Shown here piece after piece: positions 7,360 to 38,649 of a DNA stretch of 51,487 bases. The translations under genes and the position numbers were made by a program. A model generated the notes under the pieces. That model was not told the origin of the DNA. It did not search any database and was given only the letters and a program-made list of their open reading frames with translations. Position 1 is the first letter of the stretch. Each line of letters starts with the position of its first letter. Location: positions 1 to 51,487 of the forward strand of contig JACTVG010000009.1 of NCBI GenBank assembly GCA_015660965.1, given 5' to 3'. Source of the DNA: Methanoregulaceae archaeon. Its GTDB lineage: Archaea; Halobacteriota; Methanomicrobia; Methanomicrobiales; Methanospirillaceae.

Positions 7360-7578
7360 ATCTTTGGGACTATAATGTGTTCTGTTGCTTAACGGGACTC
7401 AATGGAAATGATATCCTCGGAACACTTCAATTCGAGTATTCAAATGTCCCGCAGATGCAACAGAACCCTCTCTCGATATCCTTAAATACCGTAAACGGTA
7501 TGTAGTGTTTGAAGGCAGGGGTTTTGCTTTTCATGGTGTCAGCTGCCGGACCTGAGCATGCTGCCGCCGGGGTGGTGT

Positions 7579-8448
7579 ATGTTTGAAAAGGTGCTTTTCC
7601 CGACAGATTTTTCAGAACGTGCAGAGATTATGCTCGATTGTGTTGCCAGTTTTCCGCAGGTCCGGGATATCATCCTGCTTCATGTCGTCAAAGAGACCCG
7701 GTATCCGATGGGGGCGGAGATCGCTGATACGCTGGCAAAACAGGCCGATGAAAAAACTCTCGCTGATGCACAAGACTACCTTAAAAAACTCAACCGAAAC
7801 ATCAGGGTGACGGTGGAAACAACGATATCGCCCGACATCCATGAGGGAATCCTGACAACAGCGGAGAAGAGGGGTGCCGACCTGATCGTTATCGGCGCAC
7901 ACGGAAAGAGCGTGAAGGTGGGGGTGCTCCTTGGCAGTGTACCATCGATGGTCCTGTGCCGCATCAGCAAAACCAATGTCCTGATCATGCGCCATAAGAT
8001 CATCGAGACCCTGACTGGCAAGACGTATGAGAAGTTCTGTCCCAGGCTCTTCTTTCGGATCCTCTGCCCGACAGATTTCTCCCCGTTCTCTGAACATGCA
8101 ACAGCTCTTGCTGGCATGATGAAGGAGGCGGGAGAACTCATCCTGCTCCATGTCGTACCGAAGGGTGGGACAGGTAGTGAAATCAAGGAGGCTGAACAGG
8201 CAGCGGAGGCTCGGATTGGTGCAGTCCGCGACAGCCTTGCGGCACAAGGCATCCGGTGCAGGATCATCGTGACGACAGGAGAACCTGCCAGCGAGATTTT
8301 AAAGACTGCCGAAGAGCAGGACGTATCAGTCATCTGGATCAGCTCCCATGGAAAAGGCTGTCTCCATGATTTCTTGCTTGGCAGTACGGTGCAGGACATA
8401 GCTATGAACTCGACACGGCCGGTGATCGTCATCCGCTCATGGAAATAA
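7579..8448 (+). CDS. Tandem universal stress protein (two UspA domains)
   Basis: 289 residues made of two Usp domains, about 1-140 and 155-289, each beginning with a (K/R)(V/I)L(F/C)PTDFS motif. The first has a full nucleotide-binding signature, GAHGKSVKVGVLLGS. In the second the first glycine is serine (SSHGKGCLHDFLLGS), so ATP binding may differ between halves. ATG at 7579 is chosen over the in-frame ATG at 7558 because GGGGTGGTG lies directly before it. The gene stands alone, divergent from the MFS/Usp operon. Role: general stress response; exact ligand unknown. Confidence 0.92.
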   Translation: MFEKVLFPTDFSERAEIMLDCVASFPQVRDIILLHVVKETRYPMGAEIADTLAKQADEKTLADAQDYLKKLNRNIRVTVETTISPDIHEGILTTAEKRGADLIVIGAHGKSVKVGVLLGSVPSMVLCRISKTNVLIMRHKIIETLTGKTYEKFCPRLFFRILCPTDFSPFSEHATALAGMMKEAGELILLHVVPKGGTGSEIKEAEQAAEARIGAVRDSLAAQGIRCRIIVTTGEPASEILKTAEEQDVSVIWISSHGKGCLHDFLLGSTVQDIAMNSTRPVIVIRSWK

Positions 8449-33725: not shown

Positions 33726-34679
33726 TTACCTACTGTTATCAATAAGACGGATGAGGTTTTCCCGTCCTTTTCTTACCTTCTGGATGATCCCCCGCTGGTG
33801 GAGATCGTTGAGCGTTGAACTCACGGTGGATTTTGGCATGCCCAAGACTTTTACGATCTCTGACTGGAACTGTTGCCCGCCATTTGCCTTGAGCAGCTTG
33901 ACGATCCGTTCTTCGAGGGTTACCAAATCAGCTTCGGACAAGCGGGATGCCTGGTCCTCAGGATCGTCCGGTAGATCATCCGACTCGGGTTGCTGTTTTC
34001 TCTTCAGGTATACGATAAAGCCGGCCACGATAATTAAGATGACAATGAACCCCAGGACACCCAGCAGGACCGGAAATGCCGGTCTTTCCAACACGATTCG
34101 CGGTTCCCCGGCCCCGAAGGAACGCACGCCATACCAGACAAGCCCATCGCTCACCTGCTGGTCGGGGACTGGTTCTGCAGCTGTTACCGTATAGCCATGC
34201 GGGTACTTGATGACGAGGGTGTTATCCTTTGCCAGATACAGCCCGCCGGCAAACGCATCGCCAGTGGAAAGGCCACCGTCAGACACGGCAAAGTTGGTCC
34301 AGGAAAACGAGTAGGTGACAACCCCAAACTTTCCGGTCGGGGACGTCTGAACGACGGCCTCACCGGAAAAATTGTCCGCCTCCATCTGTCTGGACGTGCT
34401 GGCGGCCGCCTGCACAGCGGAACGCTGCATCAGGTCTTTCAGCTGGGGGAGATAGACGGAGTTCAGGTCGCGGGAGTAGTTTTCAAAATTATCCATGTCC
34501 TCGTTGGTGGCAAGGGGGGTGCGGTACTCCACCGTCCAGAGTGCCGAGCCGTCTTTCTGGAGGGCGATCGTGTAGGTGGTAGTGTAATCCGGAGTGGGTG
34601 CCGACAATGCCCCCGGCAGGGTGCAAAGCAGGAGCAGGACTGCGATGGCCAAAACCCAGTACCAGGTCAGCTTATACAT
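33726..34679 (-). CDS. Membrane-anchored winged-helix protein
   Basis: 317 residues: signal sequence 1-26 (IAVLLLLCTLPGALSA), an extracytoplasmic beta-rich domain (TTTYTIALQKDGSALWTVEYRT...), one TM segment at about 205-225 (FPVLLGVLGFIVILIIVAGFIVYL), an acidic linker, then a cytoplasmic winged helix at about 250-317 (ADLVTLEERIVKLLKANGG... MPKSTVSSTLNDLHQRGIIQ). Such proteins probably sense an outside signal and regulate transcription directly at the membrane (inference from architecture). The next gene upstream on the same strand encodes a secreted DUF5667-like protein 90 bases away. Confidence 0.85.
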   Translation of the reverse strand: MYKLTWYWVLAIAVLLLLCTLPGALSAPTPDYTTTYTIALQKDGSALWTVEYRTPLATNEDMDNFENYSRDLNSVYLPQLKDLMQRSAVQAAASTSRQMEADNFSGEAVVQTSPTGKFGVVTYSFSWTNFAVSDGGLSTGDAFAGGLYLAKDNTLVIKYPHGYTVTAAEPVPDQQVSDGLVWYGVRSFGAGEPRIVLERPAFPVLLGVLGFIVILIIVAGFIVYLKRKQQPESDDLPDDPEDQASRLSEADLVTLEERIVKLLKANGGQQFQSEIVKVLGMPKSTVSSTLNDLHQRGIIQKVRKGRENLIRLIDNSR

Positions 34680-34769: not shown

Positions 34770-35768
34770 TTACCTGTTGGGGAACCTGGTATCCCAGTTG
34801 CCATTCCGGTAGTTGTTTTCGTTGCCATTCCTGTTGCTGTTGCCGTTGTCGGTCCAGCCGCCCGTTCCGCTGCCGTTTCCGTTCCTGTTTTCCTGGTTGT
34901 TTGAGGGGGACTGACTGTGGCTGGGAATTACCTGGATGGCCGGCCGGTGTTGGTCCTGCTGGGACGGGTTCGTTTCCCGGGGGGACTGCACAGTTCTGTT
35001 CCATGTCTGCCCGGTGTTTTGCCAGCTCTGGTTCCCTATCTCTGGGACCATTCTGTTTACGGTGGGGCTGTACCGTCCTTCCGCATTTGTCGGTATGGTC
35101 CGGTTCTGCGTCAGGCTCGGTGCGCCAGAACTCAGGTGTTCTGCTCGTAACCATATCCTGTTGTCTGCATCCTTGACGCGTTCGAACCGTGTCTGTGTCT
35201 TCTGTTCAAACTTCATCTCTAATTCCCGGCTGTTGTTGTATGCTCTTGCCAGGCCCGGGTTGCCGGAGTGCGAGGATAGGAGATTTTCTAGGACAACTTG
35301 GTGCTTGATGATCATGTCCTGCACGTGCATGAGGCCTTTATCAATAGGCGCCGGCATGGATCCGGTCTCATTGAACGCGGGTATGGGCGAGGTCTGGTTG
35401 AACCATTCGAGGGTACGTTCCGTCTGGTTCAGGTTCTGCCAGTATTGATCCAGTGCCCGGTCCGCGGCATCGGTCCTGTTGGCCGCCAGTGCTTCCTTCA
35501 GTTCGGCAATGCGGAGGTCTGCGTGATCAATCTCTTTTGCCAGCTTCTCGCTTTGGTTGAAAGTGAAGAAATCGTCGAGGTTTTCAAACGCGATCTTGAG
35601 CCCGTACATGGAGTTGTTAGCGCCGATAGGTCCGTTGTACGGCTGTATGTCGTCCACGAGTTGCATTCCTTGCGTGCTGGTGGTGTTGTCTGCTGCAGCG
35701 GTTCCAACAATGGTGCAGAGTAGTCCAAGTGCCACCAGTCCCAGCAGCACGCCAAACTTAGTGTTCAT
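34770..35768 (-). CDS. Secreted DUF5667-like protein with Asn/Gly-rich tail
   Basis: 332 residues. Signal peptide 1-26 (LGLVALGLLCTIVGTAAA), then a mostly helical domain to about 200 (YGLKIAFENLDDFFTFNQSEK, ...DHADLRIAELKEALAANRTD..., VQDMIIKHQVVLENLL), the pattern of DUF5667. The C-terminal third is low complexity, rich in Asn, Gln, Gly and Arg. DUF5667 proteins are thought to be extracytoplasmic and sometimes linked to anti-sigma-like regulation in bacteria. The gene lies just upstream of, and in the same direction as, the membrane winged-helix gene. GGAGGG precedes the ATG. Confidence 0.75.
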   Translation of the reverse strand: MNTKFGVLLGLVALGLLCTIVGTAAADNTTSTQGMQLVDDIQPYNGPIGANNSMYGLKIAFENLDDFFTFNQSEKLAKEIDHADLRIAELKEALAANRTDAADRALDQYWQNLNQTERTLEWFNQTSPIPAFNETGSMPAPIDKGLMHVQDMIIKHQVVLENLLSSHSGNPGLARAYNNSRELEMKFEQKTQTRFERVKDADNRIWLRAEHLSSGAPSLTQNRTIPTNAEGRYSPTVNRMVPEIGNQSWQNTGQTWNRTVQSPRETNPSQQDQHRPAIQVIPSHSQSPSNNQENRNGNGSGTGGWTDNGNSNRNGNENNYRNGNWDTRFPNR

Positions 35769-36155: not shown

Positions 36156-37037
36156 CTACGCTATGACCACATGATTTGCGGTATAGGTGTAGTTGAGTTC
36201 CTTTGCGAGCAGGGGCATCAGGTTATCGACGTCATAAAAGGTTCGGTTCAAGTACGGGTCGTAGGTGGAGAATTTCACCTCCATGAACCGCTCGATGTGG
36301 TTAACCCCTTCGTACACTTCCTCCCTTGTCTTCCAGTCGTCCTTAATCTTCGGATATATCTCGTAATCCTTGTCGCTCACCGCGATCAAGTTCAGTATAT
36401 GGTACCCTTTTTCTGTCAGATCGGATGTCACCGCGAGGTCTTCGAGCGAGAAGGTATTGAGGCTCACAATCCCCACGCAGGTATCCCACACCTTGGGGTG
36501 GGTATGGAGGATGATATACGAGTGCCCGGGTTTCATGTTCCGGACAAAGAGGTCAGAATTGATGCTCCAGTAATCGCCATTCACAAAGAACGTGTCGCCG
36601 GTATTGGCGTCAATCAGGTACCCGAGTTCTCGGGATTCTTTGATGTCGCAGTTGTAAGGAGAATGTAGTGATATCACGATCGTATCTGCTTTGTCACTGT
36701 CTTTTAATTGATCAAGCTTATCCTTTGCGTCTTGGATGCGGGCATTGAGTGCAGAGTCCTTTAGCAGTGCCAGGGTGGTTTGCGGTGATGCCGTGGCTAT
36801 TGGCGAGGAGGTGGCTGGCGACGTAACCGAAATGGTCGCTGCGGGTATTGGTGCAGGTGATGGCTCTGTTGATAACTGTGCTTCTACCGGAATGACCGTT
36901 GTTATTGTTGTTGCTGGAAGAACGGTCTGTATTGTTGATGTCTGATTTGTTATTGGTGTTTTATTTGTGCATCCACATGTGCACACTAGGAAGATTACAG
37001 TAATAATTACAAAAATGGGATATCCCTCAGAGTGCAC
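36156..37037 (-). CDS. Lipoprotein with JAMM-like (JAB1/MPN) metalloprotease motif
   Basis: 293 residues from GTG 37037, with GGGGAG seven bases upstream; an in-frame ATG at 37070 lacks a site. The first ~50 residues (signal peptide, TCGC lipobox, TNKTPITNQTSTIQTVLPAT linker) are nearly identical to those of the lipoprotein at 8539-9111. The body has RELGYLIDANTGDTFFVNGDYW, then ILHTHP and, 16 residues on, SLEDL: an HxH...SxxD zinc pattern of JAMM proteases with a longer insertion than the usual seven residues. If active, it would be an extracytoplasmic zinc hydrolase. Overlaps the pyrophosphatase gene by 11 bases. Confidence 0.65.
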   Translation of the reverse strand: MHSEGYPIFVIITVIFLVCTCGCTNKTPITNQTSTIQTVLPATTITTVIPVEAQLSTEPSPAPIPAATISVTSPATSSPIATASPQTTLALLKDSALNARIQDAKDKLDQLKDSDKADTIVISLHSPYNCDIKESRELGYLIDANTGDTFFVNGDYWSINSDLFVRNMKPGHSYIILHTHPKVWDTCVGIVSLNTFSLEDLAVTSDLTEKGYHILNLIAVSDKDYEIYPKIKDDWKTREEVYEGVNHIERFMEVKFSTYDPYLNRTFYDVDNLMPLLAKELNYTYTANHVVIA

Positions 37038-38649
37038 GGAGTTTCTCCCCGAACCAAGGGAAAAGATCATTTTTGCGGGACATCATATTCGGGAGCCGGA
37101 CCGGCTGGTTGTGGAGCTCCAGTCTCGTGAGGAGCTGGCTGTCCGCGGCGGCAAAGAGATCGCTTGCGTTGTCGAAGACGCTTGTGAACATCCCCAGGTA
37201 GATGTCCACACCGTGCTGTTTCCGGAGCCTACCGAGTTCGAGTCGGATCTCATCTATGTGCTCCTGCGAAAACGAAAAGGAGGGGATCATCACCTGCGCA
37301 ATGATCAGGCGCTTTCCAAAGAGTTCATATTGTTTTGTGTCTCGCATGAGGAGTTCCTCTATTGAGGCACCGGAAAGATTCATCCCTCTTTCAAGAAGTG
37401 CCGTTCCGAACGCGACCATGTCGAGACCCGCAATAGGCGCAAGGTTTGCGGCTGACTCCCTGTCATCCGCGGTGGTTGTGGACATCTTCAGGAAGAGGGT
37501 GTCTGAGAGGATGCCAGCAAGAAGGATGCCCGCAACCGCTGATTGTGGGGTGATACCCGCCTCGCGGTATTTTTTTGTGATGATGGTTGAAGTGGAGCCA
37601 ACCGGATCGTTCAAAAATTTCACCGGCTTTAACGTGGAAATGGCACCGAGTCGATGGTGGTCGATGATCTCGAGGATCTCTGCTTCATCAATTCCCTCAA
37701 CCGCCTGAGCAAACTCGTTGTGGTCGAGAAGGATGACCGGTTTGTGCACATCGGAAAGGAGTGTTGTCCTTGTCACGATTCCGCGGAGTGTCCCGTCCTT
37801 TTCCACAACACAGGCAGAACGAAACTTGGAGTTGGTGACGGTTTGTTTCGCCTGTGCGATGGGGTCAGAAAGCGAGAGCCGTGGGATATCCGTCTCCATC
37901 ATCATGCGTGCCGGGAGCGAGAGATTAATCATCGTCCCAACCCCGAATGCATCGAGTTCGGTGGCGAGGAGCGAGACCTTCTGCACCTGTGCCTCGCGGT
38001 TCACACGGGCACTCACCGGCGCCCCGTCAGCGATGATGAGTGCCGCAATGCCGGATGCAATCAGCGCGAGCTGCATCGGTTCGTTGTCGCCGACGACCGC
38101 GATAATGTCTTTTTCTGTCAGCTTCTTTCTGGTGATATCGGGAGCGTCAATCACAATGGTAACCCTGCCTTCGATTGTTTCCGTTGCTCTCACTACCACA
38201 CGGGCAAAGAGGATCCTAGCGAGGGTGTCAAGGGGGATCGGCGTGATGGCAAGCTCGCCGATCTTCAACCGGCGAACGTACGCACGGGCGAGCCCGTGCT
38301 CACTCACCACACCGATGAGTTTCCCATGTTCATCGGTGACCGGCACGTTCCGGATATCGTGCTTGTCCATGAGCGAGGCAACATCGATGGCGGGGACGTC
38401 CTGTGTTACACTAATTCGCGCAATCTTTAAGTCGGAAACACGTGGCGCCAAGGTGTCGATAAGGATGGGAGGTTTAATGCCAAAGGTCTCGAGCGCAAAG
38501 CACGTCTCCGCATTCAGCTCCCCGCAGCGAGCGGCAAGGTACCTGTCCGGCTCAGCGTGGTTCTTGAATGCCGCGTACCCAATCACACTCGCGATACAGT
38601 CAGTATCCGGCTGCCGGTGACCGATAATTATGACCTTATCCAGAACCAT
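37027..38649 (-). CDS. ppaC: Family II manganese-dependent inorganic pyrophosphatase with CBS pair and DRTGG domain
   Basis: 540 residues. The DHH domain starts GHRQPDTDCIAS at residues 10-21 and resumes after the insert with IIDHHRLG; DHHA2 follows to the end with MMSRKNDLFPWF for pyrophosphate binding. The insert holds one CBS motif (KHDIRNVPVTDEHGKLIGVV), a DRTGG-like domain (about 125-245) and a second CBS motif (FRSACVVEKDGTLRGIV). Mn/Mg-dependent hydrolysis of pyrophosphate drives biosynthesis; CBS pairs bind adenine nucleotides to regulate activity. SD GGGGGA. The lipoprotein gene follows with overlap. Confidence 0.95.
   Translation of the reverse strand: MVLDKVIIIGHRQPDTDCIASVIGYAAFKNHAEPDRYLAARCGELNAETCFALETFGIKPPILIDTLAPRVSDLKIARISVTQDVPAIDVASLMDKHDIRNVPVTDEHGKLIGVVSEHGLARAYVRRLKIGELAITPIPLDTLARILFARVVVRATETIEGRVTIVIDAPDITRKKLTEKDIIAVVGDNEPMQLALIASGIAALIIADGAPVSARVNREAQVQKVSLLATELDAFGVGTMINLSLPARMMMETDIPRLSLSDPIAQAKQTVTNSKFRSACVVEKDGTLRGIVTRTTLLSDVHKPVILLDHNEFAQAVEGIDEAEILEIIDHHRLGAISTLKPVKFLNDPVGSTSTIITKKYREAGITPQSAVAGILLAGILSDTLFLKMSTTTADDRESAANLAPIAGLDMVAFGTALLERGMNLSGASIEELLMRDTKQYELFGKRLIIAQVMIPSFSFSQEHIDEIRLELGRLRKQHGVDIYLGMFTSVFDNASDLFAAADSQLLTRLELHNQPVRLPNMMSRKNDLFPWFGEKLRAL

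Follow-up and report, generated by a model that had tools for sequence, protein, structure and literature searches.

A lipid-anchored surface protein of methanogenic archaea with a probable, divergent JAMM-like zinc domain

Introduction

What would a metalloprotease motif of the JAMM type be doing in a lipoprotein on the outside of an archaeal cell? The question is raised by a gene in the 51,487-nucleotide stretch of DNA analyzed here (hereafter the window; Methanoregulaceae archaeon, assembly GCA_015660965.1, contig JACTVG010000009.1, positions 1 to 51,487). The gene (P0001; 36156..37037, minus strand) begins with GTG at 37037 and encodes 293 amino acids. An earlier note on this DNA had read the product as a secreted lipoprotein resembling JAB1/MPN metalloproteases. 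For a long time, prokaryotic JAB/JAMM domains were known only from the cell interior, where they mostly cut ubiquitin-like tails, and archaeal ubiquitin-like proteins are cytoplasmic. The only exported prokaryotic JABs that we found described are toxin modules (PMC3482391).

We favor the interpretation that the gene encodes a lipid-anchored surface protein with a divergent JAB/MPN-type zinc domain, probably a peptide-bond hydrolase acting on a surface or exported polypeptide. The analysis shows the invariant residues, the lipobox, the predicted topology, the synteny, and the chimeric makeup of the gene, whereas we infer the metal, the activity and the substrate.

Results

One search of the family, covering 108 genomes, returned 13 full-length copies, which are spread over 12 genomes; genome G044 contributed a C-terminal fragment, and a match in G010 was due to chance. 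The full-length copies are confined to two genera of one methanogen family, and the named records are Methanoregula or Methanomicrobiales. An order-wide search (232 genomes) and a phylum-wide sample (393 genomes) added nothing beyond noise, and searches of viral, phage, and plasmid sequences with the domain yielded no relatives. A weak match in a distant genome (G325, E 0.004) was TrpF-like when its sequence was read and was dropped.

Among the residues that are invariant in all 13 members are Cys23, C130, E137, H178, H180, C187, S197, and D200. In the window protein, HTHP (codons of His178-Thr-His180 at 36498..36506, minus strand, as for all codons given here) is followed by SLEDL (Ser197-x-x-Asp200, 36438..36449), with 16 residues separating H180 from S197, exactly as the earlier note had described. 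The Glu-bearing strand that it placed ahead of HTHP is also predicted: E137 (36627..36629), the proposed catalytic base, begins an earlier strand in the AlphaFold models. Glu, His, His, Ser, and Asp thus occur in JAMM order in 13 of 13 members, the two His and the Asp being the proposed zinc ligands. Cys130 (36648..36650) lies seven residues N-terminal of Glu137, and its putative disulfide partner, Cys187 (36477..36479), lies in the loop between HxH and Ser.

Invariance at these positions is unlikely to be fortuitous. The domain has 44 invariant residues among 199, including 2 of 7 His, 2 of 13 Ser, 2 of 11 Glu, and 6 of 21 Asp, and the hypergeometric chance that all five motif residues fall among them is 4e-4. 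As the sole invariant His of the domain are 178 and 180, which form the HxH pair, the variation in His among homologs that would have spoken against the motif is not seen. Glu and HxH are 41 residues apart in every member, and HxH and Ser are separated by 16 residues in the window protein and by 18-19 in the other members. The domain is under purifying selection, with a ratio of nonsynonymous to synonymous substitution (dN/dS) of 0.19 against the G005 gene.

The N terminus supports a surface location, as the earlier note had proposed. A hydrophobic signal peptide (36969..37037, minus strand) runs to the lipobox Cys23 (codon 36971-36969), the arrangement of an archaeal lipoprotein. The lipobox reads [A/T]GC in most members and TCGC, a weaker form, in the window copy. 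A Pro/Thr/Ser linker then reaches approximately residue 95, where the 199-residue domain begins. An alternative ATG at 37070 would lengthen the protein to 304 residues; a Shine-Dalgarno-like GGGGAG, read from the sequence at 37050-37045, lies 7 nucleotides 5′ of the GTG.

Models from two AlphaFold runs, each with a different first sequence, are in agreement (predicted local distance difference test scores 84.7 and 84.9). The predicted order is a helix, strands, a strand begun by the Glu, a strand ended by HxH, a loop, a helix begun by SxxD, and two strands. When viral models were searched with Foldseek, seven matches reached E<=0.001; most of these are phage minor capsid proteins, and one MPN-domain protein, two RadC proteins, and one dCMP deaminase rank lower in the list. 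The best 50 matches in the PDB include weak APOBEC deaminases amid noise. JAB has been assigned to the deaminase fold (PMC3482391). The predicted topology and the matches to viral MPN, RadC, and deaminase-fold models favor a JAB-type fold. Separately, a PHROG match (phrog_32100, two members, E 0.0005) spans 37 residues and was set aside.

Comparison with known JAMM/MPN+ proteins (AfJAMM and Prok-JAB, PF14464) reveals both shared and distinct features. In common are the ordered E...H[ST]H...SxxD residues, with the Glu approximately 40 residues before HxH; as in AfJAMM, HxH closes a strand and SxxD opens a helix in the lipoprotein model. When the family was aligned to archaeal Prok-JAB and to RadC using hhalign, HxH and SxxD were in register both times. 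In AfJAMM, the zinc site adjoins the loop from the end of strand 4 to helix 2, which is held by a disulfide from that loop, C74-C95 (PMC300881), and the lipoprotein likewise has a Cys in its zinc-side loop. Unlike JAMM/MPN+ proteins, the lipoprotein is exported, separates HxH from Ser by 16 or more residues in place of 7, matches no profile, and has two additions, a strand hairpin ahead of the Glu strand and an alpha/beta extension at the C terminus.

The genomic setting suggests a possible partner. In 9 of the 13 copies, the gene is flanked by a divergent ABC ATPase gene on one side and two ABC-2 permease genes on the other. At the C-terminal end of the first permease is a PrsW intramembrane protease domain (E 5e-8 in a scan of that part by itself; shown for L032, 6724-8535, with an orthologue at G000 C154:77501-79300). 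All 12 family genomes checked contain the exporter, with or without the lipoprotein gene. In G044 the exporter is kept and a decayed C-terminal remnant of the JAMM-like gene occupies the same site (L078, G044 C93, ~7567-7653); in the window genome the exporter is on another contig, without the JAMM-like gene. We infer that the exporter site is ancestral and that the lipoprotein gene is an often-lost accessory. The arrangement is like that of PrsW-linked export and processing systems in that the ancestral neighbor, an ABC-2 permease, carries a PrsW domain at its C terminus, but here PrsW is fused to the permease rather than to a toxin, and the JAMM-like protein is encoded separately. As for copies elsewhere, two unlinked paralogues (G071 C1:230578 and G070 C1:214140) have HSHA in place of HTHP and define a second stable location of the family, a common neighborhood that holds a protein-kinase-like gene, a methyltransferase gene, and pth2-like and truD-like genes (names from sequence reading).

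A JAB fold need not mean a peptidase, and an enzyme of the RadC or Tox-JAB type would instead cut nucleic acid or act in conflict with competitors. Such a role is conceivable because exported JABs elsewhere, Tox-JAB-1 and -2, are toxin modules; they share with the lipoprotein export, the E/H[ST]H/S/D signature, and divergence from the cutters of ubiquitin tails (PMC3482391). In addition, PrsW has been proposed as an export or processing conduit for toxins, phage minor capsid proteins are among the Foldseek matches, and effector domains are known from MuF capsid proteins. However, Tox-JABs form the C-terminal part of large polymorphic toxins that come with immunity genes, whereas the lipoprotein is stand-alone, membrane-anchored, conserved in sequence within its family and not polymorphic; no immunity gene was recognized adjoining it, and its neighbors are ABC-2 genes or unrelated. 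The Pfam scan of the 13 members gave no match to Tox-JAB-2 (DUF4329, PF14220), and DUF4329 was found in none of the 393 genomes of the phylum, in a search that lacked a positive control. A DNA pattern for DUF4329 retrieved only unrelated open reading frames from viral contigs. For the RadC JAB clade (PF04002), the hhalign alignment spans 46 columns (35% identity) and keeps the two halves of the motif in register, at a score that is not significant; RadC itself is cytoplasmic and has HNHPSG with tight spacing, unlike the lipoprotein. Second Prok-JAB matches in other Methanomicrobiales were RadC, not exported JAMM proteins. On this evidence, we consider a nuclease or conflict role unlikely.

The domain could also bind metal without catalysis, for example in a lipoprotein that binds substrates or senses metals for the ABC-2 system, or not be a JAMM at all, with HxH...SxxD a mere resemblance. 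Several results weigh against the interpretation that we favor, and those on profiles and on PDB structures also point this way. The spacing is more than twice the classical H[ST]H-x7-S-x2-D (PMC300881). There was no sequence match in Pfam, NCBIfam, or the PDB, and the Pfam scan of the 13 members returned no JAB-clan profile. The hhalign significance is only ~0.05, with 14 of 300 column shuffles scoring as high, and no link to any JAMM profile is statistically firm. No solved JAMM is among the best 50 Foldseek matches in the PDB, and the comparison with the viral matches covers the fold. Finally, a functional link to the exporter is uncertain because the ABC operon is also found in genomes without the gene and 4 of the 13 copies are located elsewhere. 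Nevertheless, a chance resemblance accords poorly with five invariant motif residues in the right order, with near-classical Glu spacing and the right placement in secondary structure, or with the presence of MPN and RadC models among the viral matches, and we regard a noncatalytic or non-JAMM domain as rather improbable.

The JAMM assignment of the earlier note is partly supported, by the motif, the predicted topology, and the viral MPN, RadC, and deaminase-fold matches, but not by hidden Markov model searches, structural matches in the PDB, profile scores (marginal), or spacing (long). As no JAMM appears in the best 50 PDB matches and the profile comparison reaches only ~P 0.05, the JAB/MPN fold predicted for the domain is probable and not proven, and because the spacing and profiles depart from those of the family, JAMM membership is not established. 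Probably, this is a divergent extracytoplasmic JAMM-like domain, and by analogy the balance of likelihood is that it works like a JAMM. That it is a deubiquitinase-like enzyme for ubiquitin-like proteins, as a cytoplasmic archaeal JAMM is and as the JAB1/MPN analogy and common motif might imply, is very improbable, since the lipoprotein is exported and its loop is long, unlike the tight classical site, and a separate 140-residue Prok-JAB encoded by the window genome is better placed for this role.

The window copy differs from its relatives in how it is assembled. The segment 36112..36840 (minus strand), which comprises the JAMM-like domain, the adjoining linker, and the 3′ flank, is 84% identical in DNA to the ABC-linked G005 gene (L026 5919-6649). 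By contrast, the N-terminal cassette of signal peptide and linker (36847..37028, minus strand) is not homologous to the N terminus of the G005 gene; it is 79.9% identical over 184 bp to window 9107-8933, the start of another lipoprotein gene. Similar cassettes begin other lipoprotein genes of the window genome (G000) as well; the cassette heads genes at G000 C157:48315, 12274, and 13702, C170:79302, and G003 C103:1536 (79-91% DNA identity), and the bodies downstream of it differ between genes. These sequence comparisons suggest an N-terminal surface-anchoring module that is shuffled within the genus.

Upstream of the lipoprotein gene lies a manganese-type inorganic pyrophosphatase gene (DHH/CBS/DRTGG/DHHA2 in Pfam; 37027..38649, minus strand). 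Those genus relatives that have the pyrophosphatase share DNA homology up to the stop codon of that gene, beyond which their sequence is different. The idea of a conserved pyrophosphatase operon was discarded, since the gene is missing there in those genus relatives whose downstream region is available and none of the other members was observed next to a pyrophosphatase. Judged by the split homology and this boundary, the window copy is a relocated chimera, in which a foreign lipoprotein signal and linker cassette is fused within the linker and the whole is joined to the pyrophosphatase stop codon. The translational overlap that the earlier note had pointed to is real, at 11 nucleotides from the GTG, but because relocation joined the copy to the pyrophosphatase, it is particular to this genome and a by-product rather than a conserved coupling. 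At five loci of genus relatives (L117, L118, L119, L123, and L124), a tautomerase-like small open reading frame of approximately 60 residues that is absent from the window follows the pyrophosphatase.

Neighboring genes in the window encode a membrane-anchored DUF7345/DUF7343 protein that ends in a MarR-like helix-turn-helix (33726-34679) and a secreted DUF5667 protein (34770-35768).

Discussion

How might such a protein work? A lipid anchor would hold it at the outer face of the cytoplasmic membrane, with the zinc domain on a flexible Pro/Thr/Ser linker. From the motif and the analogy to AfJAMM, the metal would be bound by H178, H180, and D200, with E137 serving as the base that activates the bound water and S197 stabilizing the site. 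Since both Cys are invariant and the location is extracytoplasmic, a C130-C187 disulfide probably ties the long loop beside the metal. The protein would most likely be a hydrolase, probably one that cuts a peptide bond in a polypeptide that is exported or lies on the surface. Because the ancestral position of the gene is between the ATPase gene and the permease genes of the ABC-2/PrsW exporter, our working model is that the enzyme trims or degrades something that is exported or quality-controlled there. More specifically, the PrsW-fused ABC-2 exporter may work with the lipid-anchored JAMM metallopeptidase, which would process the exported product outside the cell, although we hold this partnership to be doubtful. 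In the window genome, the domain moved, took on the signal and linker cassette of another lipoprotein, and landed directly behind the pyrophosphatase stop codon.

If our interpretation is correct, a lipid-anchored JAMM with a stretched, probably disulfide-tied site would show that the fold also acts outside the cell on other substrates. Its ancestral place beside the ABC-2/PrsW exporter offers a testable partner, and the window copy captures an archaeal surface protein in the course of rebuilding through exchange of its signal and linker module.
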